Assembly (NCBI RefSeq): GCF_018861905.1
Contig: NZ_JAHLDU010000028.1
Location: forward strand, 1 to 40,464
DNA: 40,464 nucleotides
Source of the DNA: Clostridium sp. DSM 17811
Lineage (GTDB): Bacteria; Bacillota; Clostridia; Clostridiales; Clostridiaceae
Direction of reading: 5' to 3'
A model generated the notes under the pieces. It saw only the letters and a list, made by a program, of their open reading frames with translations. It had not been told where the DNA came from and did not search any database. Shown here in pieces: positions 9,192-28,486 of the stretch. Both the position numbers and the translations under genes were made by a program. Within the stretch, counting starts at the first letter, position 1. Each line of letters opens with the position of its first letter.

Positions 9192-9198
9192 ATTTTTG

Positions 9199-9544
9199 GG
9201 TAGTATCGATTGCGAACTGCACTTTATTGTTTAACATAAAAAATTTAAATTATTAAATTATCTGCTCATATCTTTATGAATGAGACTGCGCTTCAAGAGT
9301 ATCATCCTCTCAGTTATCTGAGATGTTTTTTAAATTTACTAATTCGAAATATTTCATACTTGTGGTTACAGCTCCTAAGCGAGTTACTTAACCTCTGGTT
9401 TTCTTTTAAATATAAACAATTCAGATGCAATCGCATACTTAATTTACCCTATTTAATTTTACGCAACCCTTGTTTTTCTATATAACAACCAAAAACTATA
9501 AATATTAATTCAAATAATATTTAAAAATGTAGGAGGATTAAAAA
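9199..9544 (+). other. Long untranslated leader before panB
   Basis: No convincing gene. A short open frame at 9276-9485 has no ribosome site and unusual composition. One small hairpin (9308-9313 with 9318-9323, TCTCAG/CTGAGA) is followed by TTTTTT and might act as an attenuator. The block 9276-9440 is less AT-rich than its surroundings. I do not recognise a known riboswitch or T-box in it. Confidence 0.4.
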
Positions 9545-14730: not shown

Positions 14731-14784
14731 ATACAATAAACAGTTTGCGAAAAACAATGTGGATAACTTTTTTTATAGTTGATA

Positions 14785-14940
14785 TTTAGCACTTTCTTTA
14801 TCTTTTAGTTCGTCATACTGTTAATGAATATTATTATGAATTTCTTAATGGAATTTCACGTTTCAAACTCTTATTTGGTGCCACATAGGAAAAATTCATT
14901 TTAAATTAAAACAGTAAATTTAATTAAACATAACAATTTA
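14785..14940. repeat. Diverged tandem-duplicate unit with a single-arm element remnant
   Basis: This block repeats the layout of 14947-15296. Part S (14785-14830, TTTAGCACTTTCTTT...CGTCATACTGT) matches 14947-14990. A 62-bp single arm of the repeated element (14838-14899) stands where the full element sits in the other copy. A 32-bp exact copy (14902-14933) of the uppP 3' end (15265-15296) follows. The remnant begins GAATTTCTTAATGG and ends TTCAT. The full core and second arm are absent. Confidence 0.75.
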
Positions 14941-14994
14941 TTACGATTTAGCACTTTCTTTTTTGTATTGCGTCATACTGTGAATGAATAACAG

Positions 14995-15229
14995 TATGAA
15001 GTTCTCCGGAAATAGCACCAAATAAGAAGAGCAGAAACATTGAAATTCCATTTAAAATTCTTCTTTTGAAAATATTAAATTCTCGTGAGACTGACTGGAA
15101 GGAAGGCTAGCGAACCGGCGCAAGCCGAATGTGAGTGAAAGAGAATTTAATATTTTCAAAAGATTAGAATTTCTTAATGGAATTTCACGTTTCAAACTCT
15201 TATTTGGTGCTATGCAGGAGAACTTCATA
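14995..15229 (+). repeat. Structured repeat element, full copy 1
   Basis: 235 bp, bounded by TATGAAGTTCTCC on the left and GGAGAACTTCATA on the right. Outer arms are imperfectly complementary (GCACCAAATAAGA.../...TCTTATTTGGTGC). The inner stem is perfect over 21 bp (15064-15084 with 15141-15161). The 56-base tip carries CTAGCGAACCGGC, GCAA, GCCGAATGTGAG; CGGC-GCAA-GCCG is a GNRA-type hairpin. It lies between the convergent ComEC-like gene and uppP. An 8-bp inverted repeat, CATACTGT/ACAGTATG (14974-14981, 14991-14998), overlaps its left end. A minus-strand open frame across it (15052-15237) is judged not to be a gene. Confidence 0.85.
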
Positions 15230-15263
15230 TGTTGCATCTTTTTTATTTTTTTGAACTGCCCTT

Positions 15264-16088
15264 CTAAATTAAAACAGTAAATTTAATTAAACATAATAAT
15301 ACTATACCAACAACTATTCTATAAACAGCAAAAACCCTCATAGGTTTTGTCTTTAAATAAGCAACAAATCTTTCAACTACAAGAAGTGCAACCAAAAATG
15401 CAACTATAAAACCAATAACCAAAGTAATAATTTCTCCACTACTAAAATTCATACCAGTTTTATATAAAGTAAGTGCTGTTGCTCCTACCATAGTTGGTAT
15501 TGCAAGAAAAAATGAAAACTCAGTTGCAGCAATTGTAGAAACGCCACAAATCCAACCTCCCATTATAGTAGATGCTGATCTCGACATTCCTGGCCAAAGT
15601 GCCAAACATTGAAAACATCCTATTTTAAATGATTGTTTAATACTTATTTTCTCTACACTTTTTGTTGTATGCTTATTTCTAAATCTATTTTCAATAATTA
15701 TTAATAGAATTCCGCCAACTATAAGCCCTATAGCCACGGTACCTGGATTAAAAAGATATTCATCTATTTTATCATTTAGAAGAAAACCAAAAACTGCAGC
15801 CGGTATAAATGCAACAATAATATTAGTCCAAAATTTAATTCCTGATGGCTTAAGTTTAAAAAATCCCACAATCGAGTTCCATATTTTACTCCAATATAAA
15901 ACCATAATAGCAAGAATCGCTCCTAATTGAATTACTACCTCAAAACTATTTGCAAACGTGCCTTTAAAATTTATAATATTTCCCACAATGATCATATGCC
16001 CCGTGGAGGAAATAGGAATAAATTCTGTTATTCCTTCGACTACAGCTATTATTATAGCTTTTAAAACCAATATAATGTTTAAATCCAT
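15264..16088 (-). CDS. uppP: Undecaprenyl-diphosphatase
   Basis: 274 residues with about eight membrane segments. It removes a phosphate from undecaprenyl diphosphate to recycle the carrier lipid for peptidoglycan and wall polymers, and gives bacitracin resistance. Signature motifs are EGITEFIPISSTGHMIIV (about residues 19-36, catalytic Glu-rich box) and PGMSRSASTIMGG (about 172-184). SD AAGGGAGC before the ATG. A near-consensus promoter is at 16129-16157. The last 32 bases of the gene are duplicated downstream at 14902-14933. It fits functionally with murT-gatD nearby. Confidence 0.96.
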   Translation of the reverse strand: MDLNIILVLKAIIIAVVEGITEFIPISSTGHMIIVGNIINFKGTFANSFEVVIQLGAILAIMVLYWSKIWNSIVGFFKLKPSGIKFWTNIIVAFIPAAVFGFLLNDKIDEYLFNPGTVAIGLIVGGILLIIIENRFRNKHTTKSVEKISIKQSFKIGCFQCLALWPGMSRSASTIMGGWICGVSTIAATEFSFFLAIPTMVGATALTLYKTGMNFSSGEIITLVIGFIVAFLVALLVVERFVAYLKTKPMRVFAVYRIVVGIVLLCLIKFTVLI

Positions 16089-16128
16089 CTATTGTTTGCT
16101 CCCTTCTAAAAATAATTTGTAATTTTTA

Positions 16129-16157
16129 ATTATAATATATTAACAAATTAAATACAA
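16129..16157 (-). promoter_or_regulatory. Promoter of uppP
   Basis: Minus strand: TTGTAT (16152-16157), 17-base spacer, TATAAT (16129-16134), 40 bases before the start codon. Confidence 0.6.
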
Positions 16158-16181
16158 TTAAATTTTTATTAATATTCTTTT

Positions 16182-17135
16182 TCATAACTTCTCCGTGCTT
16201 GTCCCCTTTGTTCTTATCATATATATTGCACATATTACTAAAACAGTACCAACTATCTGCATAAGTGTTATATGCTCATGTAGTATAAAAAACGATAAAA
16301 TCATAGCAGTTGGTATTTCTAGATTTCCTATTATAGATACCTTAAGCGATCCTATATATTTTATAGCTGCATATAGTAATGTTAAAGGAATAATTTCACA
16401 AAATATGGCAAGTATAGTTGTATATATTAAAAGGTTTTTAGTTATATCACCCCTAAAAACAAATAGAGGGAATTTGTATATCATAAGGCTTATTAGTGAA
16501 AAAAGTGTTGAATAGGCATTAATAGTTAACGGGCCAATTCCCTGTAATTTTTCTTCGCTATAAATATTCATAAATGCATAAAACATTGCACATATTAAAG
16601 CAAATATTACTCCTTTAATCGAATATTTAGGCTGACTTGATAAAATATCAAGAGTTAAAAGGCAACCAAAAAATGCCAAAAACACAGCAAAAACTTTTAT
16701 GTAACTTATTGACCCCTTCTTAAACACCGCTGAATATATGAATACCATTATAGGATATGTATATAGTAATATAGCCACCATTTGAATAGGTAAATAGTTA
16801 TAGGCTGTATAATAAAATACTGTCATAAATGTGTTTCCAACAATTCCAAGTATCGCGAGTCTTAATAATTGCTTTTTTGTTACTTTAAATGACTTTTTAT
16901 TAAAAATATACATGATTACAAACATTAATGGAACAGCTATAATGTACTGCAGTGTGAGTAAACTTATAGCCTCAATTCCAAGACCAGAAGCTAGCTTTAC
17001 AAATAGCCCCGCACTCCCGAATAATACAGCTGAAAAAATCGAATAAATATATCCTTTGCTAAGTAAAATAGTATGATACCCCCAGTACTTAAATCTAATG
17101 TTTTTTGTGCTACCGTTATATTCTAACAAATCCAT
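16182..17135 (-). CDS. EamA-family (DMT) permease
   Basis: Up to 317 residues with ten predicted membrane helices in two EamA repeats, typical of drug/metabolite transporters (for example FSAVLFGSAGLFVKLASGLG at the start of repeat 1 and FALICAMFYAFMNIYSEEKL in repeat 2). Usual members begin 4-8 residues before the first helix. Here a hydrophilic stretch of about 28 residues (LEYNGSTKNIRFKYWGYH) precedes it, and the ATG at 17135 has only a weak site, so the true start may be internal. Substrate unknown, often an amino acid or metabolite exporter. Monocistronic. Confidence 0.85.
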   Translation of the reverse strand: MDLLEYNGSTKNIRFKYWGYHTILLSKGYIYSIFSAVLFGSAGLFVKLASGLGIEAISLLTLQYIIAVPLMFVIMYIFNKKSFKVTKKQLLRLAILGIVGNTFMTVFYYTAYNYLPIQMVAILLYTYPIMVFIYSAVFKKGSISYIKVFAVFLAFFGCLLTLDILSSQPKYSIKGVIFALICAMFYAFMNIYSEEKLQGIGPLTINAYSTLFSLISLMIYKFPLFVFRGDITKNLLIYTTILAIFCEIIPLTLLYAAIKYIGSLKVSIIGNLEIPTAMILSFFILHEHITLMQIVGTVLVICAIYMIRTKGTSTEKL

Positions 17136-17207
17136 ACCTAAAAAGCCACATGATTTAATAATAAGTTAGATTAATATGTTAGACATTTATGTTAGTATGT
17201 TATAAAA

Positions 17208-17235
17208 TTGTATTATCATAAATATAAGGTATAAT
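17208..17235 (+). promoter_or_regulatory. Promoter of murT-gatD
   Basis: TTGTAT (17208-17213), 16-base spacer, TATAAT (17230-17235), about 50 bases before the murT start in an AT-rich divergent gap. Confidence 0.55.
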
Positions 17236-17285
17236 AAAAGTTATGTTAATAATAAAATCTAAATTCATAAGTACAATTAAAGGAT

Positions 17286-18644
17286 GTGTTCAAAATTAAA
17301 ATTCAGTCATTACTCAGTATATTAGTTTCAAAATTTGTTATGACATTATCAAAGTCTATATTTCAAGGCGGCACTAATTTCCCCGGGAAGATCGCCCTAA
17401 AACTTGATAAAAACATTTTGAAAACAATTGCTAATAATTATGAGGTTATACTTATAACCGGTACAAATGGTAAAACCACAACAACAAGCATGATTTATAG
17501 CATTGTAAAAGACAGCAAAAGACCTGTAATTACTAATAATACTGGTGCAAATATGTATACAGGAATTGTTGCATGCTTTATTTCAAATTATTCATTTAAA
17601 AAGTCCACCGAGAGAAAAATTGCTGTTATAGAAGTAGATGAGGCTAATCTTAAATTTGTAACGCAGTATATAACCCCAAAAGTAATTACTATAACAAACC
17701 TTTTTCGGGATCAAATGGACAGATATGGAGAAGTATATACAACTCTAAAGAAAATCCTTGTCGGAATCGAAAAAGTTCCTGAATCAACTCTTGTTCTTAA
17801 TGGAGACGAATCTTTATTTGGAAGCTTAAATCTTACAAATGATGTTATCTACTATGGTTTCGGAACAAAAGTTACTGAAAATAAAATTGTAGATATCAAC
17901 GCAGATGCTAAGTTTTGCACAATCTGCAAATCCCCCTACAGTTATAATTTTATAACCTACAATCATCTTGGGGATTTCTATTGCCCTGGATGTGGATATA
18001 AAAGGCCAGAGCTTACCTACTTCGTAGATAAAGTGATTGATCTAAATACCAGTGGTTCCTCAGTTAATATTAATAATAAAGAATATTACATAAATCAACC
18101 AGGTACATATAATATTTATAATGCTCTCTGCGCATATTCCGTAGCAAAGGTTCTTGAAATTGAAGATAACGTTATAGAGCATTCGCTTAAAACCGTAGCT
18201 AGTAGTTTTGGTAGACAAGAAACTCTAAATATTGATGGCACCGAAGTTAAAATAATATTGGTTAAAAATCCTGCAGGTTATGACGAAGCTGTAAACACTA
18301 TTAATCTTGACAAGCGTAAAATAAACTTATCTCTCATGTTAAATGATAATTATGCAGATGGTAAAGATGTCTCTTGGATTTGGGATGTGAATTTTGAACG
18401 CCTTACCAGTCTTGATGTTAACAAAGTTATGATCTCAGGTATTCGTCTATACGATATGGCAATAAGACTTAAAGTAGCTGGTTTTTCATCAGATACTTTC
18501 CTACTTTGCACGGATGAAGAAACCTTACTTAAAGAAATTAAATCTTGCAATGGTGAAATAGTATATGTGCTCGCAACCTATACTGCAATGATAAATTTAA
18601 GAAAGTTTTTACATACTAAAGGTTACATAAATAAAATTTGGTAA
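17286..18644 (+). CDS. murT: Lipid II isoglutaminyl synthase, MurT subunit
   Basis: 452 residues. With GatD it amidates the D-glutamate of lipid II to D-isoglutamine. It has a Mur-ligase-type P-loop (ITGTNGKTTTTSMIYSI, near residue 60), then a four-cysteine zinc ribbon unique to MurT (CTICKSPY...FYCPGCGYKRPE). The C-terminal DUF1727 domain has the catalytic-aspartate region DNYADGKDVSWIWDVNFE. The start is taken at the GTG at 17286; AAAGGA overlaps it closely, and the N-terminus KIKIQSLLSILVSKFV matches the family, so a few residues of uncertainty remain. The gatD start is 49 bp after the stop, one operon. Confidence 0.95.
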   Translation: MFKIKIQSLLSILVSKFVMTLSKSIFQGGTNFPGKIALKLDKNILKTIANNYEVILITGTNGKTTTTSMIYSIVKDSKRPVITNNTGANMYTGIVACFISNYSFKKSTERKIAVIEVDEANLKFVTQYITPKVITITNLFRDQMDRYGEVYTTLKKILVGIEKVPESTLVLNGDESLFGSLNLTNDVIYYGFGTKVTENKIVDINADAKFCTICKSPYSYNFITYNHLGDFYCPGCGYKRPELTYFVDKVIDLNTSGSSVNINNKEYYINQPGTYNIYNALCAYSVAKVLEIEDNVIEHSLKTVASSFGRQETLNIDGTEVKIILVKNPAGYDEAVNTINLDKRKINLSLMLNDNYADGKDVSWIWDVNFERLTSLDVNKVMISGIRLYDMAIRLKVAGFSSDTFLLCTDEETLLKEIKSCNGEIVYVLATYTAMINLRKFLHTKGYINKIW

Positions 18645-18692
18645 TAACAAAATTATAATATGATAAAAAATCTAATTCAGAAGGTGAATAAT

Positions 18693-19418
18693 ATGGAAAT
18701 TAACATTTGTCATCTATATCCTGATTTATTAAATGTGTATGGGGATGTAGGTAATATTTTAATACTAAAACACAGAGCAGAGCTTCGAGGAATTGGAGTA
18801 AACATTGTTAATATATCTATGGGTGATATTTTTAAAGCAGAAGATTACGATATTGTTTTTTTTGGAGGCGGCCAAGATTACGAACAAACTATAGTTTCTC
18901 CAGATCTAATAACTCTAAAAAAAGCATCAATGGAAGAATATATAGAAAGCGGTAAAGTATTTTTAGCCATTTGCGGTGGATACCAATTGCTTGGGAAATA
19001 TTATACAACACCAAGTGGTGAGCAAGTTGAAGGTCTTGGTATTTTGGATATTTACACACAAAGCGGTGACAAACGTTTTATAGGTAACACAGTAATTCAT
19101 AATGAAACGTTTGATGAAACCTATGTAGGCTTTGAAAACCATTCTGGAAGGACCTATATTAACGATTTATTACCCCTTGGCAAAGTTGAAGTTGGATATG
19201 GTAATAATGGAGAAGACGGTTACGAGGGTTGCGTATATAAAAATACCTTCTGTACTTATTTCCACGGTTCGCTTCTTTCTAAAAATCCTGAACTTGCAGA
19301 CAGATTGCTTTCAATTGCATTAAATAACAAATATGATGAAGTAGCTTTAACTTCTTTAGATGATAGCCTAGAAATTAAAGCTAAAGAATTTATAATAAAA
19401 AGAGAAACTGCTAAATAA
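18693..19418 (+). CDS. gatD: Lipid II isoglutaminyl synthase, glutaminase subunit GatD
   Basis: 241 residues from the ATG at 18693, which has AAGGTG seven bases upstream; the frame is open further up to 18660 without a site. It is a class I (triad) glutamine amidotransferase that supplies ammonia to MurT. Visible are the substrate-side motif HLYPDLLNVYGDVGNI, the oxyanion region FFGGGQDYEQ, the nucleophile cysteine in FLAICGGYQLLGKYY and the catalytic His in YFHGSLLSKNPELAD. The MurT-GatD pair makes amidated peptidoglycan, needed for efficient cross-linking and lysozyme tolerance in other Gram-positives. Confidence 0.95.
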   Translation: MEINICHLYPDLLNVYGDVGNILILKHRAELRGIGVNIVNISMGDIFKAEDYDIVFFGGGQDYEQTIVSPDLITLKKASMEEYIESGKVFLAICGGYQLLGKYYTTPSGEQVEGLGILDIYTQSGDKRFIGNTVIHNETFDETYVGFENHSGRTYINDLLPLGKVEVGYGNNGEDGYEGCVYKNTFCTYFHGSLLSKNPELADRLLSIALNNKYDEVALTSLDDSLEIKAKEFIIKRETAK

Positions 19419-19508
19419 ATAATGGTATAAATGTGCATAATAACTGTTGTATTACTACTCAAACATCATAAATTATATGAAGGTATAAAAGAGCTGAAAG
19501 AATACCGG

Positions 19509-19783
19509 TATGAATTTCTCCGGTATTGGCACCAAATAAGAAGAGCAGAAACATTGAAATCCCATTTAAAATTCTTCTTTTGTAAATAAAAATTCTCGTG
19601 AGACTGCCCAAGCAGTCTAGCGAACCGGCTGTAAGCCGAATGTGAGCACATAACAATTAATAATTGTTATGCCCCCCAGAGAACGACCCAGAGGAGAGAA
19701 TTTTTATTTACAAAAGATTAGAATTTCTTAATGGGATTTCACGTTTCAAACTCTTATTTGGTGCCACGCAGGAGAAATTCATA
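19509..19783 (+). repeat. Structured repeat element, full copy 2
   Basis: 275 bp, bounded by TATGAATTTCTCC and GGAGAAATTCATA. The inner stem is perfect over 20 bp (19578-19597 with 19696-19715), with bases different from copy 1. The tip has hairpin AGACTGC-CCAA-GCAGTCT, then CTAGCGAACCGGC and GCCGAATGTGAGC. A roughly 45-bp insertion relative to copy 1 contains a perfect inverted repeat (19649-19659 with 19661-19671). Also AATACCGG (19501-19508) and CCGGTATT (19520-19527) form an 8-bp hairpin over the left end. It lies between convergent gatD and an XRE-TPR gene. No open frame spans this copy. Confidence 0.85.
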
Positions 19784-19816
19784 GATTGCATTTTTTTATT
19801 TCCAATGGCTGATAAG

Positions 19817-19887
19817 AAGATTAGAATTTCTTAATGAAATTTCACGTTTCAAACTCTTATTTGGTTGATACGCAGGAGAAATTCATA
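19817..19887 (+). repeat. Single-arm remnant of the repeat element
   Basis: 71 bp matching the right arm of copy 2 (AAGATTAGAATTTCTTAATG...CAGGAGAAATTCATA), 33 bp after the end of that copy and in the same direction. Core and left arm are absent. One extra base in GGTTGATACG disrupts the GGTGC box. Confidence 0.75.
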
Positions 19888-19914
19888 GGGTACATTATGC
19901 AAAGTAGTAACTAG

Positions 19915-19958
19915 AAAAAAAGATGTAAGTTTGGATAAATCCCAAATTTACATCTTTT
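19915..19958 (-). terminator. Terminator overlapping the end of the XRE-TPR gene
   Basis: Inverted repeat AAAAAGATGTAA(g)TTTGG / CCAAATTTACATCTTTTT. On the minus strand the EKKM codons and the TAA stop (19948-19950) form the first arm, and the second arm ends in a T run. Confidence 0.75.
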
Positions 19959-21231
19959 TCTCTAATTGTAATGCCAAACTAAAATATTTTATAGAATCAG
20001 CCACATTAGATAGTTTATGGTACATACTCCCCATTTCTAAATAACGAGCATATATATCTTTCTTATTTCCAAACTTTAATAGTGAATCTAAAGATAAATT
20101 CATGTACATCTCTGCACTAGATGCACTCCCTTGTCTATCGAGAATAATAGCTTTATAATAATAGCTTTTTTCTATGAACTTAATATCATCTAAATTAATT
20201 GCATAGTTTAATACTTCATCAGAAATACTCTGTGCAAGCTCAACTACATCATTTTTAATAAGTTTTTCAACACAATTAAGCATAAATTCGACTAGTCCTA
20301 CCTTATCATCTCTAGGATATACGCTTAACCCATGACTTATATACTCAATTGCTTTTTCTTTCATATTACAGTCAAACATGGTTGACCCATAATTGAAAAT
20401 AGCCATTGCCTTATAAGATGACTTATCTTTATATAACTCATAAGACTTTTGCTCATATTTTTGAAAGTCACCATTTTTCATTCTTATAGATAAAATAGCT
20501 AACATATGATATATCTGGGCCGCACGAAGATCTGTATCCACATGTTTAACCAAATCTAGTAACCTTTTTCCTACTTTAAAAGCACGTTCATAATTTTCTA
20601 GCTTAATATTACAAGCAGCCTCATTATACGTTACTGTTATTATTTTTTTATAATTCAAAATCTTACTACTATAAAGTCCCTTTCTAACATTACGATAATA
20701 ACTCGATGCTTGAAGAAAATCTTCTTTTATATACAGATGTCTTGCCATATCTATATAATAAGTTAATTTATTATCCTCTATAGATGTTTTTAAATACAAA
20801 TCATAATACTTTGAAGTAACTGCTTGAGTGTTCTCAAAATCCTTTTCATCTAAGTAAAAATTAAATAACATATGCATTAATTCAATAGCTAAATCATAAT
20901 AATTATATTTTTCAGCTACCTCCAAATTATAGGATACATTAGTTTTGTAATCCTCATCCTTAATAGCTATATTATCCTCATTTTTTACATTCACCTTTAA
21001 TATTTCAATATTTTCCTTAACTTGCTCAAATACATTCTCATTTAGATATCCGAGATCTATGTCTAATTCCTTACTGATTAATTCTAATACCCAGGGCTCT
21101 GCTATAACTTTATTATTTTCTATACAGCTCATTTTAGATACTGATATTTTGTCATCACATATCTCTTTTAATGTATATCCTTTATATATTCTACTTCTTT
21201 TTATTTTTTCTCCAGTTGATAATATTTTCAT
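19948..21231 (-). CDS. XRE-family regulator with TPR repeats (first of a tandem pair)
   Basis: 427 residues from the ATG at 21231, chosen because GGTGAT lies at good spacing. Two more in-frame starts just upstream (GTG 21240, ATG 21237) overlap that site. The N-terminal helix-turn-helix is GEKIKRSRIYKGYTLKEICD...SKMSCIENNK. The rest (about residues 75-427) is helical with TPR-like repeats (AKEAIEYISHGLSVYP-type units). The architecture resembles RRNPP peptide-sensing regulators. The recognition half of the HTH diverges from its neighbour. I found no small secreted peptide gene next to it. Its targets are unknown. Confidence 0.8.
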   Translation of the reverse strand: MKILSTGEKIKRSRIYKGYTLKEICDDKISVSKMSCIENNKVIAEPWVLELISKELDIDLGYLNENVFEQVKENIEILKVNVKNEDNIAIKDEDYKTNVSYNLEVAEKYNYYDLAIELMHMLFNFYLDEKDFENTQAVTSKYYDLYLKTSIEDNKLTYYIDMARHLYIKEDFLQASSYYRNVRKGLYSSKILNYKKIITVTYNEAACNIKLENYERAFKVGKRLLDLVKHVDTDLRAAQIYHMLAILSIRMKNGDFQKYEQKSYELYKDKSSYKAMAIFNYGSTMFDCNMKEKAIEYISHGLSVYPRDDKVGLVEFMLNCVEKLIKNDVVELAQSISDEVLNYAINLDDIKFIEKSYYYKAIILDRQGSASSAEMYMNLSLDSLLKFGNKKDIYARYLEMGSMYHKLSNVADSIKYFSLALQLEKKM

Positions 21232-21242
21232 TGTCATCACCT

Positions 21243-21284
21243 ATCCATAAATCGTATAATTAATTTGTAAAATTGTCCATAAAT
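21243..21284. promoter_or_regulatory. Direct repeat TCCATAAAT between the two XRE-TPR genes
   Basis: TCCATAAAT occurs at 21244-21252 and 21276-21284, 32 bp apart (about three helical turns), in the 56-bp gap before the first XRE-TPR gene. It could be an operator for one of the regulators. Nothing more direct supports that. Confidence 0.35.
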
Positions 21285-21287
21285 AGT

Positions 21288-22586
21288 TTACTTTATTACT
21301 CCTAATTTTTTAAACAACTCTACACCTTCATTTAAATATTTAGCCGCATCTATACTTCTGCCACCATCAACATAAAACTTCCCAATCATTATAGATATTT
21401 CAGCCGCTTCCTTTAGTTTATCTTGCTCTTTTACAAATCTTAGTGCTTGAAGTAATGTGTTTTCAGCTTCATTCTTATTATCTTCTAATAAATCGACTCT
21501 ATATTTTAATAAGTAATACTTAAATAGTGCTTTATTATTACCATCTTCTATATAATCTAGTATATGGTTTAAAGCTTCTTTAGCTTTACTTACTGACTTA
21601 AGCTTAATATAATTTTCACAAATATTAGCTAACGTGTCTATTAATTTTAAGTCCCTAGTATTTTGTCTAATCTCCTTAGCCTTATTTAGGTGTATAAATG
21701 ATTCTTCCATATTTTCAAATTCATAAAACAATCTTCCTAAATTATTTTCTATCTCCGATACATAAGTCAAATTATTAATTTCTTTAAATATTTTCAAAGT
21801 AACCTTCGAGTATTTTATAGCGTTTTTAATATCACCTTTTTTATTATATCCATCCGCGAGTAACAGGAGTGAATTAGCATACTCATTTTTACTATTTATT
21901 TGATTGAATTTTTCCTTAGCTAAATATGAATATTTTATAGCATTTTCAATGTTTTCTAATTTAAAATAAGTATAACCTATATAATAATATATTTCGCCTA
22001 GTAAAAAATCATTTCCCATTTGATTGTCTATAAAAACTTTTTCAGCTTGCTTAAAATAACTAGAGGCTGACTGATATCCCATCATCTTAAGGGTTATTTT
22101 CCCAAGTTTTAATAAAGTTTCAATTATTTCTTCATAAGAATTGTTTTTAATAAAGATTATATTTGCAGAAAGAAAAAACTGTTGAGCTGACGCAATGTCT
22201 TGCTGCTCTATATATATATCGCCTCTTAAAGATAAATTCCTAGCTCCTTGATATTCTAATTTATATTTTTCACAGTAATATATAGATTTATCGATGTTTT
22301 GCTCTGCCTGCAATAAATCACTATTCAGAATCTGAGCCTCAGCAATATTTTGGTAGAACAAGCATATTTTTTCAGCTTGTGTTTCCTCCGACTCCATTAG
22401 ATATTCAACAGTTGTATTTAAATCATTTGCCAAATATTCTAATAAATCCATACTTGGATTGGATTTACCGGATTCTACTAAACTAATTTGACCTGGAGTT
22501 ATTCTACTACCCGCAAGGTCTTTTAATGTCATGTTAAGCTCTTTTCTTTTCCTCTTTATCTTTTCTCCCATAGATAATATTTCCAT
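21288..22586 (-). CDS. XRE-family regulator with TPR repeats (second of a tandem pair)
   Basis: 432 residues from the ATG at 22586 (GGAAGAG upstream; a GTG at 22592 overlaps the site). The HTH is GEKIKRKRKELNMTLKDLAG with the recognition helix TPGQISLVESGKSNPS, a textbook XRE motif. The remainder is a row of TPR units (for example GEIYYYIGYTYFKLENIENA and ESFIHLNKAKEIR), ending KYLNEGVELFKKLG. It shares its start motif (M-ILS-GEKIKR) and length with the next gene downstream, so the pair arose by old duplication. Probably an RRNPP-like sensor-regulator; ligand and targets unknown. Confidence 0.83.
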   Translation of the reverse strand: MEILSMGEKIKRKRKELNMTLKDLAGSRITPGQISLVESGKSNPSMDLLEYLANDLNTTVEYLMESEETQAEKICLFYQNIAEAQILNSDLLQAEQNIDKSIYYCEKYKLEYQGARNLSLRGDIYIEQQDIASAQQFFLSANIIFIKNNSYEEIIETLLKLGKITLKMMGYQSASSYFKQAEKVFIDNQMGNDFLLGEIYYYIGYTYFKLENIENAIKYSYLAKEKFNQINSKNEYANSLLLLADGYNKKGDIKNAIKYSKVTLKIFKEINNLTYVSEIENNLGRLFYEFENMEESFIHLNKAKEIRQNTRDLKLIDTLANICENYIKLKSVSKAKEALNHILDYIEDGNNKALFKYYLLKYRVDLLEDNKNEAENTLLQALRFVKEQDKLKEAAEISIMIGKFYVDGGRSIDAAKYLNEGVELFKKLGVIK

Positions 22587-22726
22587 AATCACTCTTCCTT
22601 TACAACATGGTAATATAATAGTATTAATTTATACAAATCGACAATTTAATTCAATTATAACATAGTTCACCTATAATATTGTAAATATATGAATAGATTT
22701 TGAATTTATGCTAAAAAAATTAAAAA

Positions 22727-22760
22727 CTCCAAACCATGTGTTTATTAACATAGTTTGGAG
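22727..22760 (-). terminator. Terminator of the YtxH-like gene
   Basis: Stem CTCCAAAC(c)ATG / CAT(a)GTTTGGAG, 22727-22760, followed on the minus strand by TTTTTAATTTTTTT. It starts 16 bases after the stop of the gene at 22776-22952. Confidence 0.8.
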
Positions 22761-22775
22761 CCTTTTAAACCATAA

Positions 22776-22952
22776 TTATAAAATATGATCCTTGATGTTA
22801 TCATACATGTCTCCTGCCATATTCATTACCATTTTGCCTGTTTTTTTAGCTCTTCTTCTTGTGTTTCTGTCCATATTAGGAATTAACATCATACCTGCAG
22901 CTACGCCAATTATCGCACCTGCTGTAATTGTTGATATAAATTTATTTTGCAT
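22776..22952 (-). CDS. YtxH-like small membrane protein
   Basis: 58 residues, MQNKFISTITAGAIIGVAAG at the start, then MMLIPNMDRNTRRRAKKTGK and a helical amphipathic tail. A single glycine/alanine-rich membrane segment followed by an Arg/Lys patch is the YtxH-type layout, common as general-stress proteins in Firmicutes. SD GAAGGGATG lies about 9 bases before the ATG, and the gene has its own terminator. The short frame on the opposite strand here is a shadow. Function unknown. Confidence 0.75.
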   Translation of the reverse strand: MQNKFISTITAGAIIGVAAGMMLIPNMDRNTRRRAKKTGKMVMNMAGDMYDNIKDHIL

Positions 22953-23103
22953 AAATTACACATCCCTTCTTTATTTATTTATTTATTCCTTATAGGATGT
23001 GCATTTTTTAATTGATTAATGTGCTTTTTTGAAAATTAATAAATAAATCTAATAGTAAAAATAAAAATTTAGTTCATAATACTTTCGCCAAACTATAAAG
23101 TTT

Positions 23104-25170
23104 TTATGAATAAACATCTGACAGTTCTATTTTTATATTTTCATCATGACCTCTCACATTACTACTATAGATCATATTTTCATGAAGTACCTTCTCCTTG
23201 GGAAGTCTTACTGTAAATTTGCTTCCCTTCCCAAATTCACTTTCAACATATATACTACCACCATGCAATTCAACAATTGACTTAACTAAACTAAGGCCAA
23301 TACCCGTACCCTCTGCATTTCTTGATAACGACTTATCTACCTGTCTAAACCTGTCAAATATGATATCCAAATGCTCCTCTTCAATGCCAATTCCGTTATC
23401 TTTAACTGATATTTCAACAAATTTATTTTCATTCTTAACATAAACTAATATTTCATCACCTTTATCTGAAAATTTTATAGCATTTGATATAAGATTTAAA
23501 ACTATTCTCTCTATTTTTTCTATATCACACGCAATAATATTTTCCTCAAGGTCCGTGTCAAAAACAATGTTTAATCCCTTACTCTCAGTAAGATTAGTTA
23601 AAGACACCACAATTTCTTCTACAATTTCAACTATATTATTATTTGATAAATTCAGTTTATAAAACCCTGCTTCTATTTTTGATAAATCAACTATATTATT
23701 AATAATTTTGGATAATCTATAAGAATTTTGCTTAATTGATTCTATATATTTAATAATAGAATCTTTTTTATCATCAAGAGAGCCATTCATACAATACATG
23801 TTAAATAACTGAGCTGTTGCAAATATAACATTTAATGGTGTTTTAAGCTCATGTGATATATTAACAAGGAATTCCCCCTGTAGTTTTAATGCTTTTTCCA
23901 TAACTATATTAGATTTAATTTCAGGAGTAACATCTATTATTAGAATTAATATTTCACGTATTTTCCCATTTACTTCAAATACTGGTTCAAATATAATGTT
24001 CCAATATACTTGGTTTCCATTTAAGGTTAAGGCTTTTTTATTTAAATACTTAATCTTCTTATCCTTCAAAACTTCATCTAAACACTTATAGTATTCACTA
24101 TTTTTAAAGTTTTCAAACAAATCTTCTATTTTATAACCCTTTATTTGAAGGATTGATTTAATCCTTGGCATAATCGATTCAATAATACCAAAAGCTTTTC
24201 TATTAATATCCACAATTTTAAAATCTTGATATGATAATCGAACTACAGGTAAATCAAAAGTATTTACCATTCTATTTAAGAATTCATAACGGCCTCTTGT
24301 AATTTCCTCATGCTTAAAATAGTCTGTCATATCTCTACTACAAAGAACTCCTAAGATAAATTTCCCATTGCTATCATAAATAGGGGTACCATTAACATCT
24401 ATTTGTAATGTCTTACTTGGGGACTTAACTATCATTCTCATATTTTTAAATTCTTCGCCCCTCATAACTCTATGTGCTGGAATATCTTCGTAATCAATTT
24501 TCTTCCCACTAGTATCATAAAACTCAGAAGCATTATACCCATCACTTATATTGTCCAAACTATTGTAAGAAGAGAGAAACAATTCCCTTGATGTTTTATT
24601 TACTAATATGTATTTTCCTTTATCATCGAAAATAGCAATAGAATCAGCTATATTTTCTATGATAGCCTCTAATTCCTTTTTCTGCTGCTCTATTTCTCTT
24701 GATTGGTTTATTGTTTCTGTAATATCGTGAAAACAAGATACTATTATAGTTAAATCACCATTTGCATTGTAAATAGGAGTTGAACTAATTTCTGCAAAGT
24801 ATTCTTTATTAGGGTGGCATACAAAAATCTTAACATTCTTTGATTTTTCACCTCTTAATGCTCTAACTGATGGAAAATCTTTATAAGGCACCTGGTTACC
24901 TAGAATATCGAAAACTTCAATATTCTTAAAAGCATCAGCTATATTAATTCCTATATCTGATTTATAAATAAGCCTCCTTGCTTCCGAATTTACCATTATA
25001 AAATCGCCCTTATTATTAGCAAACATTACTCCCTCAGATAAATTTTCAATAATACTAAGTAACTGAGTATTTTGCTCCTCTATCTTCTGATTTCGCTTCC
25101 TAAGCTTCTGGTTTTGATCGAAGATAATCTTATAACGTTGCTCAATACTTAAATTTTCGAAATTTTCCAA
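23104..25170 (-). CDS. Soluble PAS-domain sensor histidine kinase, no adjacent response regulator
   Basis: 688 residues starting at TTG with GAGGTGA. No membrane helices, so it is a cytoplasmic sensor. After an N-terminal coiled coil there are three PAS-like domains (about 38-150, 165-280, 300-415; TPIYNANGDLTIIVSCFHDI and GTPIYDSNGKFILGVLCSRD mark two ends). Then come HisKA with H440 in FLVNISHELKTPLNVIF and an HATPase with DNGIGIEEEHLDIIFDRF and GTGIGLSLVKSIVELHGG. It is an orphan kinase; in clostridia such kinases may feed Spo0A, but that is family knowledge, not shown here. It sits 22 bp after the RNase H gene, so the two are probably co-transcribed. Confidence 0.93.
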   Translation of the reverse strand: MENFENLSIEQRYKIIFDQNQKLRKRNQKIEEQNTQLLSIIENLSEGVMFANNKGDFIMVNSEARRLIYKSDIGINIADAFKNIEVFDILGNQVPYKDFPSVRALRGEKSKNVKIFVCHPNKEYFAEISSTPIYNANGDLTIIVSCFHDITETINQSREIEQQKKELEAIIENIADSIAIFDDKGKYILVNKTSRELFLSSYNSLDNISDGYNASEFYDTSGKKIDYEDIPAHRVMRGEEFKNMRMIVKSPSKTLQIDVNGTPIYDSNGKFILGVLCSRDMTDYFKHEEITRGRYEFLNRMVNTFDLPVVRLSYQDFKIVDINRKAFGIIESIMPRIKSILQIKGYKIEDLFENFKNSEYYKCLDEVLKDKKIKYLNKKALTLNGNQVYWNIIFEPVFEVNGKIREILILIIDVTPEIKSNIVMEKALKLQGEFLVNISHELKTPLNVIFATAQLFNMYCMNGSLDDKKDSIIKYIESIKQNSYRLSKIINNIVDLSKIEAGFYKLNLSNNNIVEIVEEIVVSLTNLTESKGLNIVFDTDLEENIIACDIEKIERIVLNLISNAIKFSDKGDEILVYVKNENKFVEISVKDNGIGIEEEHLDIIFDRFRQVDKSLSRNAEGTGIGLSLVKSIVELHGGSIYVESEFGKGSKFTVRLPKEKVLHENMIYSSNVRGHDENIKIELSDVYS

Positions 25171-25192
25171 TATATCACCTCAATAATTTATA

Positions 25193-26140
25193 TTACTTTA
25201 TATTATTCGTTTTTAATAGATAAATAATAAAGTTTGTTTTTTCATCACTACTTAGGTTTGAAAGCAAACTTTCTATTTCTCTTTTGTTAATTGCATACTC
25301 ATGAATAATCTCACTAAATGAATATGTTTTATTTTGCTTTTCATTGCATTTTTCTTTAATACTTGAACCCTTAATAGTATTAGGCTCTTTAACAATTATA
25401 TTAGCCTCTCCCTTTGGTGCTATTAAGCGAATTTCGTCCTTTACTACCTCGCTTGCTACATTTATAGTGTTACATGCTAGCCACTTTTCCACAACCTTAT
25501 CTGATTTTATTCCGAGGCGTTCCTTACATTTCTCATCAACAAGTTCATTAAACAAATCTCCAGTATGACTATCTACTTTAACAAATATAACCTCGAGTCC
25601 ACTCTTCATAATTTCTTGCATTTCCCTATAATACTGCTTTGATGATTCCTCTTTTCTATCCCAGAACCCCGTAGCATGATAACAAATCCCTATATAATCA
25701 TGAAATATTACTACTTTCTTTTCTCCCATGCTTTGTGCATACTGACATCCTTTTACTGCACCTTCTAGTTCCCCTGCAATTTGTCTTATATTTTTAGTAG
25801 AATCACTATTCCCTTTGCCACTCTCTATATGAAGAACTACATCATCCCGAACTGCTACCATTCCATAAGAATACTCCATAGTTTGTGAATTATAACTTCC
25901 ATCCACATAAATATGAAGGATATCTTTTGGATAATTATTATCTATTTTATCTAAAATAATAGGATCACCATTTAAAAACTTTTCAGCTTCATTTTTATCC
26001 TCAAAGCTCTTATATTTAGCACCTTTTACTCCTTTTACATATTTTAAGCACTCTGCCCAAGTACCAACTATTATATTTTCCATTTTTTCATTAGTATTAG
26101 AATTAAATCCTTCCTTTATAGCATAAACTTTTTTACCCAT
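25193..26140 (-). CDS. RNase H with N-terminal hybrid-binding domain and a C-terminal extension
   Basis: 315 residues. Residues 3-57 (KKVYAIKEGFN...VKGVKGAKYKSFEDKNEAEK) form the viroplasmin-type RNA-DNA hybrid-binding domain found in RNase H1. Residues 75-210 are the RNase H fold with the four acidic metal ligands in place: D80 (HIYVDGSYN), E124 (AGELEGAVK), D148 (IFHDYIGI) and D202 (LVDEKCKE). It removes RNA from RNA-DNA hybrids. The last 95 residues are an extra, low-complexity linker plus a helical end (YSFSEIIHEYAINKREIESL) that I do not recognise. Good SD (AAAGGAGAAC). Confidence 0.92.
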   Translation of the reverse strand: MGKKVYAIKEGFNSNTNEKMENIIVGTWAECLKYVKGVKGAKYKSFEDKNEAEKFLNGDPIILDKIDNNYPKDILHIYVDGSYNSQTMEYSYGMVAVRDDVVLHIESGKGNSDSTKNIRQIAGELEGAVKGCQYAQSMGEKKVVIFHDYIGICYHATGFWDRKEESSKQYYREMQEIMKSGLEVIFVKVDSHTGDLFNELVDEKCKERLGIKSDKVVEKWLACNTINVASEVVKDEIRLIAPKGEANIIVKEPNTIKGSSIKEKCNEKQNKTYSFSEIIHEYAINKREIESLLSNLSSDEKTNFIIYLLKTNNIK

Positions 26141-26432
26141 TCTTTATGTTCTCCTTTTTTAAAGCTATTCTATAATTTAAACCTCTAAGTATTATGTAAT
26201 ACCCCTCTAATTCTATCATAAATAAAGTATACAATAAATAATAAGATTAATAATTCATTTTTTACAATATTTACATTTCCATAATCTATTAGGTTCGATG
26301 GACAAGGCCTCAGAATAATATTATAATAACCCTTACAAGTCTAGATTGTAAAAGTTTAGTTTCACATATTATGTTTATTTTGCAAATTAAAATATAAGAT
26401 ATATTAGTATAAAAATAATTCTGCTTTATTAG
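26141..26432. other. Intergenic region between the divergent RNase H and ftsH genes
   Basis: AT-rich, with a slightly less AT-rich stretch at 26291-26345 (GGTTCGATGGACAAGGCCTC). Weak promoter-like matches face both ways (TTGCAA near 26378 for ftsH). No gene, known riboswitch or repeat-element copy is seen. Confidence 0.35.
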
Positions 26433-26493
26433 AAAGGATGGTGAATGAAGCGGATTCTACGGCTACTCTAAAGTAAAGTAGAACTCTTGCTTC
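26433..26493 (+). promoter_or_regulatory. Possible leader peptide and hairpin in the ftsH 5' region
   Basis: AAAGGA (26433-26438) is the only good ribosome site before ftsH, but it lies 61 bases from the ftsH ATG. It is ideally placed (6 bases) for an 8-codon frame, ATG 26445 to TAA 26471, encoding MKRILRLL. An alternative is a 12-codon frame from 26438 to 26476. A hairpin pairs GAAGC (26447-26451) with GCTTC (26489-26493) and TTCTAC (26455-26460) with GTAGAA (26478-26483), ending 6 bases before the ftsH ATG. This fits translation attenuation or a hairpin that bridges site and start. Confidence 0.4.
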
Positions 26494-26499
26494 GATTTT

Positions 26500-28278
26500 A
26501 TGAATAAAATTAAAAATAAGTATATTTTGCTTCCTATTATTACTGCAGTTTTATCATTAGTACTCCTCGTTTTTGTAAGTAGTACCTTTAAAGTATCTTC
26601 AACTAAACTATATACTAATTTTCTTAAAGATGTTTCGCTAAATACTATTTCCACAGTATACGTAACAACCTCTCCTAAAATTCAAGTTAAACTTAAAGAT
26701 GGAACTATTTACGAAACTGACAATCCAAGAACTAACAATTTCAAAGAAGGTTTATTAAAGGATGGTATAAATGTTTCTGAGCAAGCTTTAACTAGTCCAT
26801 TAGAAGTTGCATCCATATCTGGTTTTGTAATTTCTCTTATAGTACTTGGATTTATGTGCTTTAAACCTGCAAGGAGAAAAACAAAAGGCATGTTCTCAGC
26901 TAGCAACCTTGACGTTACAGCCGTTTCGGATATAGGCTTTAACTTTGAAAATGTAGCCGGTAATGAAGAAGCTAAAGATAGTGTACAAGACGTAGTTGAT
27001 TTCCTTAAAAACCCCGAAAAATATTCTGCTTATGGAGCTAGAATGCCAAGAGGTGTAATTTTATATGGAGATCCAGGAACAGGTAAAACCCTTCTTGCAA
27101 AAGCGGTAGCTGGAGAGGCAAATGTACCTTTCTACGCAGTTTCTGGTTCTGATTTTGTTCAGATATATGTAGGGGTTGGTGCTGGAAGAATCAGAAGCTT
27201 ATTTAAGAAAGCAAGAAGTCATGGAAGAGCAGTTATCTTTATTGATGAGATTGATGCTATTGGCAAAAAAAGAGATAATGGAACTGGTGGTGGTTCTGAT
27301 GAGAAAGATCAGACACTTAATGCTCTACTAACTGAGATGTCTGGCTTTAATGAGTCAGAGGGCATAATTATAATTGCAGCAACTAACAGGCTTGATATGC
27401 TTGACGAAGCACTACTTCGTCCTGGTCGTTTTGATAGACATATTGAAGTAACTCTTCCTGATGTATCTGCAAGAGAAAAGATTTTAAAACTTCATCTAAA
27501 AAACAAACCTATTAAGGATATAGACTACAGCGAATGGGCACATAAAACTTCATACTTTTCAGGTGCAAAGCTAGAAAATTTAGCTAATGAAGCAGCCATC
27601 ATTGCTTGTAAAGACAATTCTACATTCATTGAAAATGAACATTTAGATAAAGCTTATTCGATAATGCTAGCAGGTTATGAAAAAGTTGATAGAGATTATA
27701 TTAAAGAGGATGATAGAAAAATAACTGCATTCCATGAAGCTGGACATGCTTTAATTTCACTTAAGATGTTACCAAAAGACAAGGTATCTAAAGTAACTAT
27801 AATTCCAACTACCAAAGGTGCTGGCGGTTATACTTTAAGTATCCCCGAAGATAAACTATATCAAAACAAAGATTATATAAAGAAAAAAATAATGGTACTA
27901 CTCGGTGGCAGGGCTGCTGAAGAGATTATTTTTGGTAGGGACCATGTAACCACTGGTGCATATAGCGATTTGCAAAGAAGTACTCAGCTTATAACAAACA
28001 TGATAACAGAATACGGAATGGGTGAATCCTTAGGTCTACTTACTATGGCTAAATTAAAAGAATCAGGTTTCACAAATCAAGAACAAGTATTCTCGGAATG
28101 TAAAAATTTAATTTCGCAGTTATATGATGAAGTTATAAACATACTAACAACTGAAAAAGAATCTCTAAAAAGTATCACTAGTTTATTAATTAAAAAAGAA
28201 ACTATAGATCATGAAGATTTAATAAGTATTATAAATAAAGATGCGATCTATGATTGTCTCCTGCATAGCACCAAATAA
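26500..28278 (+). CDS. ftsH: ATP-dependent zinc metalloprotease FtsH, 3' end supplied by a repeat element
   Basis: 592 residues, a membrane-anchored AAA+ protease that degrades misfolded membrane and regulatory proteins. TM1 is residues 8-28 and TM2 about 101-121, with a short outer domain between. Motifs: Walker A GDPGTGKT (190-197), pore YVGVGAGR, Walker B AVIFIDE (244-250), second region of homology AATNRLDMLDEALLRPGRFD, zinc site HEAGH (412-416) and the third ligand in TTGAYSDLQRS. The last nine residues and the TAA stop come from repeat element copy 3. The start has no near ribosome site; see 26433-26493. Shorter than many FtsH proteins (about 600-660), so it may be a second paralogue. 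Confidence 0.95.
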   Translation: MNKIKNKYILLPIITAVLSLVLLVFVSSTFKVSSTKLYTNFLKDVSLNTISTVYVTTSPKIQVKLKDGTIYETDNPRTNNFKEGLLKDGINVSEQALTSPLEVASISGFVISLIVLGFMCFKPARRKTKGMFSASNLDVTAVSDIGFNFENVAGNEEAKDSVQDVVDFLKNPEKYSAYGARMPRGVILYGDPGTGKTLLAKAVAGEANVPFYAVSGSDFVQIYVGVGAGRIRSLFKKARSHGRAVIFIDEIDAIGKKRDNGTGGGSDEKDQTLNALLTEMSGFNESEGIIIIAATNRLDMLDEALLRPGRFDRHIEVTLPDVSAREKILKLHLKNKPIKDIDYSEWAHKTSYFSGAKLENLANEAAIIACKDNSTFIENEHLDKAYSIMLAGYEKVDRDYIKEDDRKITAFHEAGHALISLKMLPKDKVSKVTIIPTTKGAGGYTLSIPEDKLYQNKDYIKKKIMVLLGGRAAEEIIFGRDHVTTGAYSDLQRSTQLITNMITEYGMGESLGLLTMAKLKESGFTNQEQVFSECKNLISQLYDEVINILTTEKESLKSITSLLIKKETIDHEDLISIINKDAIYDCLLHSTK

Positions 28279-28486
28279 GAGGTTGAAACGTGAAATTCCA
28301 TTAAGAAATTCTAATCTTTTGCAAATAGAAAATCCTCTAGCGCTCACATTCGGCGTGCAACGCCGGTTCGCTAGCCTTCCTTCCAGTCAGGCTCACGAGA
28401 ATTTTATATTTACAAAAGAAGAATTTTAAATGGAATTTCAATGTTTCTGCCCTTCTTATTTGGTATCACTTCCGGAGAAATTCATA
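28249..28486 (-). repeat. Structured repeat element, full copy 3, in reverse orientation over the ftsH end
   Basis: 238 bp. In the orientation of copies 1 and 2 it runs on the minus strand. The inner stem is 28317-28337 with 28397-28417 (18 of 21 pairs). Core motifs are conserved (CTAGCGAACCGGC, GCCGAATGTGAGC), with a longer hairpin CGGCGT-TGC-ACGCCG. The tip hairpin has AGCCT/AGGCT where copy 2 has AGACT/AGTCT. The arm next to ftsH contains the last codons of that gene, and similarity to the flanks of copies 1 and 2 extends back to about 28231. An open frame (28241-28429) across it is not considered a gene. Confidence 0.85.

Follow-up and report, generated by a model that had tools for sequence, protein, structure and literature searches.

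A 40,464-nucleotide stretch of Clostridium sp. DSM 17811 (contig NZ_JAHLDU010000028.1), here called the window, contains three full copies and two fragments of a long, non-coding palindromic repeat. The best reading takes them for old copies of a mobile DNA element with the shape of a hairpin. It is judged probable that they belong to a genus-wide family of ~260-bp palindromic, non-coding elements that resemble miniature inverted-repeat transposable elements (MITEs), carry a diverged TwoAYGGAY RNA at their apex and are sited at terminators. The features of the family in the window were located by blastn, by folding and with R1, a covariance model derived from 20 cores:

14838–14899, + strand: right-arm remnant, with its join at the 8-bp direct repeat GAATTTCT (blastn, query 169–234)
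14995–15229, + strand: full hairpin element, copy A (blastn, fold)
15071–15155, + strand: three-way-junction core of copy A (R1, 84.0 bits; alignment A1)
19509–19783, + strand: full hairpin element, copy B, with an extra module (blastn, fold)
19584–19666, + strand: three-way-junction core of copy B (R1, 50.2 bits)
19649–19695, + strand: optional module of copy B, an AT-rich hairpin plus CCCCCAGAGAACGACCCAGAGG
19817–19887, + strand: right-arm remnant downstream of copy B (blastn, query 166–235)
28249–28486, − strand: full hairpin element, copy C (blastn, fold)
28323–28410, − strand: three-way-junction core of copy C (R1, 84.0 bits)

An earlier, sequence-only reading of the window had reported the three full copies and both arm pieces, together with shared core boxes, and all were recovered at the same coordinates. 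The outer ends that it described need one small correction: the window-left end of copy C is TATGATTGTCTCC, not TATGAA(g/t)TTCTCC. Its proposal that each full copy could fold into one long hairpin is borne out by folding energies far beyond those of shuffled sequences: −107.8 kcal/mol for copy A (z = −14.3), −120.3 kcal/mol for copy B (z = −15.3) and −94.6 kcal/mol for copy C (z = −9.1), with 0 of 200 shuffles as good in each case. The family also has the basic features of a MITE, being short, bounded by terminal inverted repeats, dispersed and free of a long open reading frame (ORF) of its own.

In the remnant at 14838–14899, the left end TATGAATTTCT runs straight into right-arm sequence (TAATGG). 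The 8-bp repeat delimits the deletion, as slippage across a hairpin would lead one to expect, and the same join is found at the orthologous site in genome G004. By eye, the surrounding region (14780–15300) is an imperfect tandem duplication of flank, element and flank, the first unit of which lacks the hairpin interior. The extra module of copy B, which combines an AT-rich hairpin with CCCCCAAAGAACGACCCAGAGG, is optional and recurs in several other family members. The AT-rich hairpin AACAATTAATAATTGTT lies inside some elements and also occurs elsewhere without a nearby core (contigs C1 and C9 of the same genome); it may be a small repeat in its own right. At its 3′ end, an ORF at 26500–28278 that is ftsH-like by eye runs into copy C, which supplies its last codons; the stop codon, at 28278, falls 30 bp within the element. 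DNA similarity to the ORF ends at ~28232 in most congeners' matches, though not in G001, which shares copy C.

The much larger genome-wide number expected by the sequence-only reading was confirmed. Within the 98 contigs (5.19 Mb) of the host genome, a blastn search with copy A gave at least 60 matches, the best beyond the query itself at E 5.7e-88, with 40 of 110 candidates scored; R1 gave at least 32 (150 of 1809 candidates scored). A covariance-model search of the host and other Clostridium genomes, as that reading had suggested, gave matches in all 16 congeners, with 6 to 28 in each. Outside the genus, R1 matches were confined to G018 (1) and G020 (17), both of the same family; none was found in the remaining 21 of the 40 genomes searched. 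An exact core pattern located 38 stretches in named genomes, the hosts being Clostridium lacusfryxellense, frigoris, tagluense, algoriphilum and bowmanii, strains CF012 and CS001, and a few metagenome-assembled genomes. The clostridia that carry this pattern are largely cold-living. For the comparisons that follow, 115 elements were kept from 133 core matches.

A core related to the TwoAYGGAY RNA

The core is a three-way junction of a long arm (P1) and two hairpins, P2 and P3, the latter with a tandem G.A step. This architecture is established by compensatory changes: among the 20 aligned cores, 16 of 28 pairs are changed on both sides and 95.7% of cells pair, and none of 500 shuffles reaches any of the five measures used. 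Such changes are also seen among four copies that lie next to one gene in different records. The tandem G.A step in the P3 stem (GCGAAC/GTGAGC, A1 columns 43–48 and 70–75) is present, and its flanking pairs are kept in 98.8% of cells. Conservation extends beyond the core in the consensus of the 93 of 115 elements that lack an insert, with values of 0.91–0.96 in two inner arm blocks, 0.84–0.92 in the core blocks and 0.42–0.70 in the less conserved outer ends. Copy number and covariation together rule out chance or ordinary terminators as the origin of the repeats.

An Rfam scan of the window alone gave just a pan motif and chance matches. The link to a catalogued RNA runs through siblings of the window copies. 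Copy A matches C1:409613–409801 (locus L036; E 8.1e-43, 80% identity), which scores 61.3 bits against TwoAYGGAY (RF01731), above the gathering cut-off of 43 bits. Eight RF01731 matches of 52.5–70.2 bits, all above the cut-off, were obtained in seven of eight own-genome and congeneric loci, the own-genome siblings scoring 52.5, 61.3, 65.5 and 70.2 bits; the eighth locus, L068, had no match. Sister elements from G020 (five, 39.9–45.5 bits) and G018 (one, 50.5 bits) all match the model, three of the six at or above the cut-off. In a scan of 24 genomes, 14 were positive (13 of the 16 of the genus, plus G029), with two matches in the window's own genome, and none of 14 control genomes was. A faster, stricter scan, which scored at most seven candidates per genome, found RF01731 in at least 35 of 391 Clostridia genomes, 26 of them with two or more matches. 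By these comparisons, the window core is a diverged homologue of RF01731, and the family is real and widespread.

The sequence-only reading had not recognised a named family. For the core this view fails because own-genome siblings match RF01731 above the cut-off; the Rfam comparison that it had proposed thus yielded a known RNA, an outcome it had named as refuting, for the siblings and not for copies A, B and C. The elements resemble TwoAYGGAY in the three-way junction, the tandem G.A pairs and, in most copies of the genus, two GGA loops. They differ in that the window copies, in which the P3 GGA loop is replaced by another short loop, fall below detection, and in that a mobile hairpin of 260 bp here bears the RNA at its tip. 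The motif dates from 2010, and a 2014 motif study still calls its function unknown. Among the papers listed on Clostridium MITEs, palindromes and structured RNA, on IS1182 with MITEs and on MITEs with Rfam, no title or abstract ties TwoAYGGAY to transposons; the accessible main-text passages of papers that name the motif say nothing on mobility.

Mobile relatives and insertion sites

Direct signs of mobility come from TwoAYGGAY elements in other genomes. RF01731 gave 35 matches in G029, a genome from a different family of the order. The 20 copies fetched share a 285-bp unit with the ends CAGATTGT.../...ACAGTCTG, around which an entire terminator-type palindrome of 18–32 bp is directly duplicated in 14 copies; four others have altered duplicates (by eye) and two have a hairpin on one side only. 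The end motif, with at most one mismatch, occurs 95 times in the genome versus once for a reversed control. An insertion sequence (IS) encoding an IS1182-family transposase (NF033551, 484 bits, cut-off 270) carries this motif at its left end, so that its ends are nearly identical to those of the unit as far as they could be seen, the right end being out of view because the IS copies break contigs. A palindrome abuts the left end in four of five IS loci. Judged by its ends and duplications, the G029 element is a 285-bp MITE of an IS1182-family IS. A ~48-bp G029 remnant with both IS1182-type ends and no hairpin between them was also seen (L260).

G076 holds a different 285-bp TwoAYGGAY element, with the ends CT(T/G)CGATTCGTAATAT and target duplications of 8–10 bp that are exact in four of seven copies and carry one or two mismatches in the other three, so that duplications mark TwoAYGGAY elements as MITEs in two genomes other than that of the window. 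In G402, ends were matched on both sides (up to five mismatches) in four of seven copies, and this genome may have a third end type. Because the ends differ between G029 and G076, and possibly G402, the RNA core is common to elements with different ends. In G020, the elements have variable left or internal deletions; the copies compared share the left end and have internal deletions, not 5′ truncation. One G020 sister element (L186) is ~930 bp long; its left part contains another long hairpin that is non-coding, and none of its open frames exceeds 64 aa.

IS1182 copies from the congeners G001, G006 and G015 are flanked by direct duplicates of whole terminator-like palindromes of 24–48 bp at eight of nine loci examined, two of these being neighbours with one palindrome in common; at the ninth, the left end is missing. 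These duplicated-palindrome loci are L289, L290, L291, L299, L300, L306, L315 and L318. A published parallel is IS1272 of the same family, which, in the portions available of PMC5678879 and PMC4923244, uses hairpin targets, several of them terminators, without target duplication. According to those portions, the stem-loop is replaced or partly deleted (PMC4923244), and duplication of the whole stem-loop is drawn as a possible pathway (PMC5678879), which matches the palindromes in G029 and around the congeneric IS1182 copies. IS1272 differs from the window family in that no transposase is tied to the latter. Relative to IS1182-family IS and their MITEs, which the G029 element resembles in its IS1182-type ends at duplicated palindromes, the window family bears different ends (TATGAAATTTCTCC), lacks duplications and is markedly polar.

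For the window copies, the evidence of mobility is indirect, and the MITE nature of the family is well supported by its relatives. At site B, a gap of 37–103 bp without an element is present in seven of eight distant congeners, the eighth holding other sequence; at site C, 110–298 bp without an element are found in all seven comparable distant congeners, with one missing. Site A was readable in five of the eight, one of which holds 2.6 kb. Close relatives have, at the window sites, a right arm only, a left arm only, tandem left halves or a full copy. The MITE-like character proposed by the sequence-only reading, which had suggested looking for empty sites and target duplications, is supported indirectly: same-core relatives are MITEs with terminal repeats and duplications, and sites B and C are element-free in comparable distant congeners. 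The window family itself shows no target duplication in the 56 copies compared. The family looks older than its mobile relatives.

Placement at gene ends and origin of the window family

The elements are oriented with respect to their neighbouring genes. With ORFs of 90 aa or more called mechanically, the right-hand ORF is antisense in 100 of 114 distinct copies (p 3.5e-17, uncorrected for shared ancestry), and the stop of the convergent right-hand ORF lies −53 to +60 bp from the approximate right end in 90 of the 114. On contigs C1, C9 and C28 of the window genome, the right neighbour is antisense in 23 of 26 copies; the gaps that hold elements are convergent in 13 cases, tandem in 13 and divergent in none, versus 72, 283 and 82 in the background. 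G020 has a like polarity (12 of 13 copies with a right-hand ORF, among the 16 of 17 copies used). The consensus of the 93 elements is an A-tract, a hairpin and a T-tract (AAAAAAGTATG...CATACTTTTTT), a layout that looks like a giant terminator and fits insertion in place of a terminator hairpin. Among the 76 of 115 copies with ends found, T5 lies within 30 bp on the right side in 30 and on the left side in 7.

The family also clusters on one chromosome arm in three of four near-closed genomes. With dnaA set as zero, a region from −0.197 to −0.066 of the chromosome, defined on G004 alone, holds 14 of 15 matches in that genome. The same region holds 11 of 17 in G006 (binomial p 1e-6), 12 of 19 in G001 (5e-7) and 3 of 9 in G015 (0.10); scan statistics from 5000 simulations each gave p values of 0 (G004), 0 (G006), 0.0002 (G001) and 0.32 (G015). 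IS copies, taken as a control, fall in this region in 3 of 23 cases in G001 and 1 of 20 in G015. The clustered copies are not independent events, since some sites were inherited in common, as with copy C in G001.

A mobile origin of the window family may be pictured as follows. A transposase supplied in trans and directed at intrinsic-terminator hairpins just behind stop codons would have mobilised the elements. Insertion would replace the terminator hairpin without duplication, as published for IS1272, and the transposase may since have been lost or still be unrecognised. The solo arms would be slippage deletions of the hairpin, and the present-day copies probably serve as giant bidirectional terminators.

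Several results weigh against this account. Both ends could be located in 56 of 115 copies, and these show no excess of target duplications of lengths 1–10. In C1, C9 and C28 (795 kb of the 5.19 Mb), no IS with window-family ends was recognised: a search for these ends gave 66 end-like matches (57 for a reversed-pattern control), and none of the 32 without an arm behind them resembled an IS end by eye, the pairing of ends not being scripted. The IS1182 genes seen in the genus have other ends, which rules them out as partners of the family, and the own genome has weak matches to them (best E 5.4e-7). Polarity is weak or absent in other genomes (12 of 20 in G029, 3 of 7 in G076, 1 of 6 in G402 and 4 of 6 in G239), and a palindromic target does not explain it in the window family. 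Individual searches with copies A, B and C at E ≤ 10 still give no match to RF01731, and 3 of the 16 genus genomes have none. The 391-genome scan was likewise without a match even in the window's own genome; that scan therefore misses members.

Alternative readings and minor features

A possible, if doubtful, alternative is that the main function of the repeats is that of a small RNA that titrates CsrA, the two apical GGA loops binding CsrA dimers and the dispersed copies forming a sponge. In the accessible part of PMC4333381, motif matches led to the proposal that TwoAYGGAY sequesters CsrA. GGA is present in both apical loops of 64 of 96 distinct cores and in P2 of 81 (of the 115, the others were unparsed or identical), and csrA was found in 20 of 22 genomes tested. 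In G015, which has no csrA match, P3 GGA is present in 2 of 8 copies versus 62 of 88 elsewhere (Fisher p 0.015), a pattern that is suggestive only, since the copies come from one lineage and the p value cannot be taken as independent evidence. Against this reading, 32 of the 96 cores lack GGA in one or both loops, and csrA is also present in five of six same-family genomes without the element. P3 GGA is absent from copies A, B and C, and P2 GGA from copy B, so the window copies are unlikely to be good CsrA binders. Copies that keep GGA in both apical loops may bind CsrA.

The repeats could instead be retained by the host, as gene-end terminators or small RNA genes kept by selection and multiplied by recombination rather than by transposition. 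This reading, considered unlikely, would liken them to repetitive extragenic palindromes (REP) and bacterial interspersed mosaic elements (BIME), which are likewise intergenic, multi-copy hairpins at gene 3′ ends; the window family is larger and has a branched, covarying core. The polarity toward the neighbouring gene and the absent target duplications agree with it, as do copies beside one gene, lysA-like by eye, in six records and the compensatory changes among copies at this gene in four different records. In those four copies, 99.1% of cells are paired, and the seven pairs that vary on both sides are a number reached by 2 of 500 shuffles; further pair types do no better than shuffles (262 of 500). 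This pairing could come from selection or from template-switch correction of imperfect palindromes, which can also yield arm covariation. The reading is further opposed by sites that are empty or partly filled between relatives, by TwoAYGGAY relatives that are clear MITEs, and by tandem half copies and internal deletions, which suggest weak constraint. A retroposon-like element with polar insertion at terminators, as in group IIC introns, would account for the fixed gene-end orientation in the window family and G020 and for the variable left or internal deletions in G020, but is very improbable given the long terminal inverted repeats, the DDE transposase used by a relative, and the left ends kept, with internal rather than 5′ deletions, in the G020 copies compared.

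A broader and more tentative proposal is that TwoAYGGAY is a travelling RNA domain, a hairpin-MITE tip captured by several unrelated end and transposase types, whose copies double as terminators and, where the GGA loops survive, as a CsrA sponge. One type would have IS1182 ends and duplicate the whole terminator, another would make duplications of 8–10 bp, and the third, a polar one found in G020 and cold-living Clostridium, would replace the terminator. As transposon cargo, TwoAYGGAY would have its patchy, multi-copy distribution explained, and mobile copies at gene ends would be predicted to act as transcription terminators, with CsrA titration as a further possibility. Polarity and clustering on one chromosome arm are additional puzzles open to testing.

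Two other structured features were observed. A further repeated hairpin with TTTGAGCGAAGCGAGTTT occurs at L015:1985–2019 and in the left flank of L100, with five near matches in C1 and C9. The pan motif of the window (RF01749, 53.2 bits) lies at 9197–9292, upstream of an ORF that is panB-like by eye.

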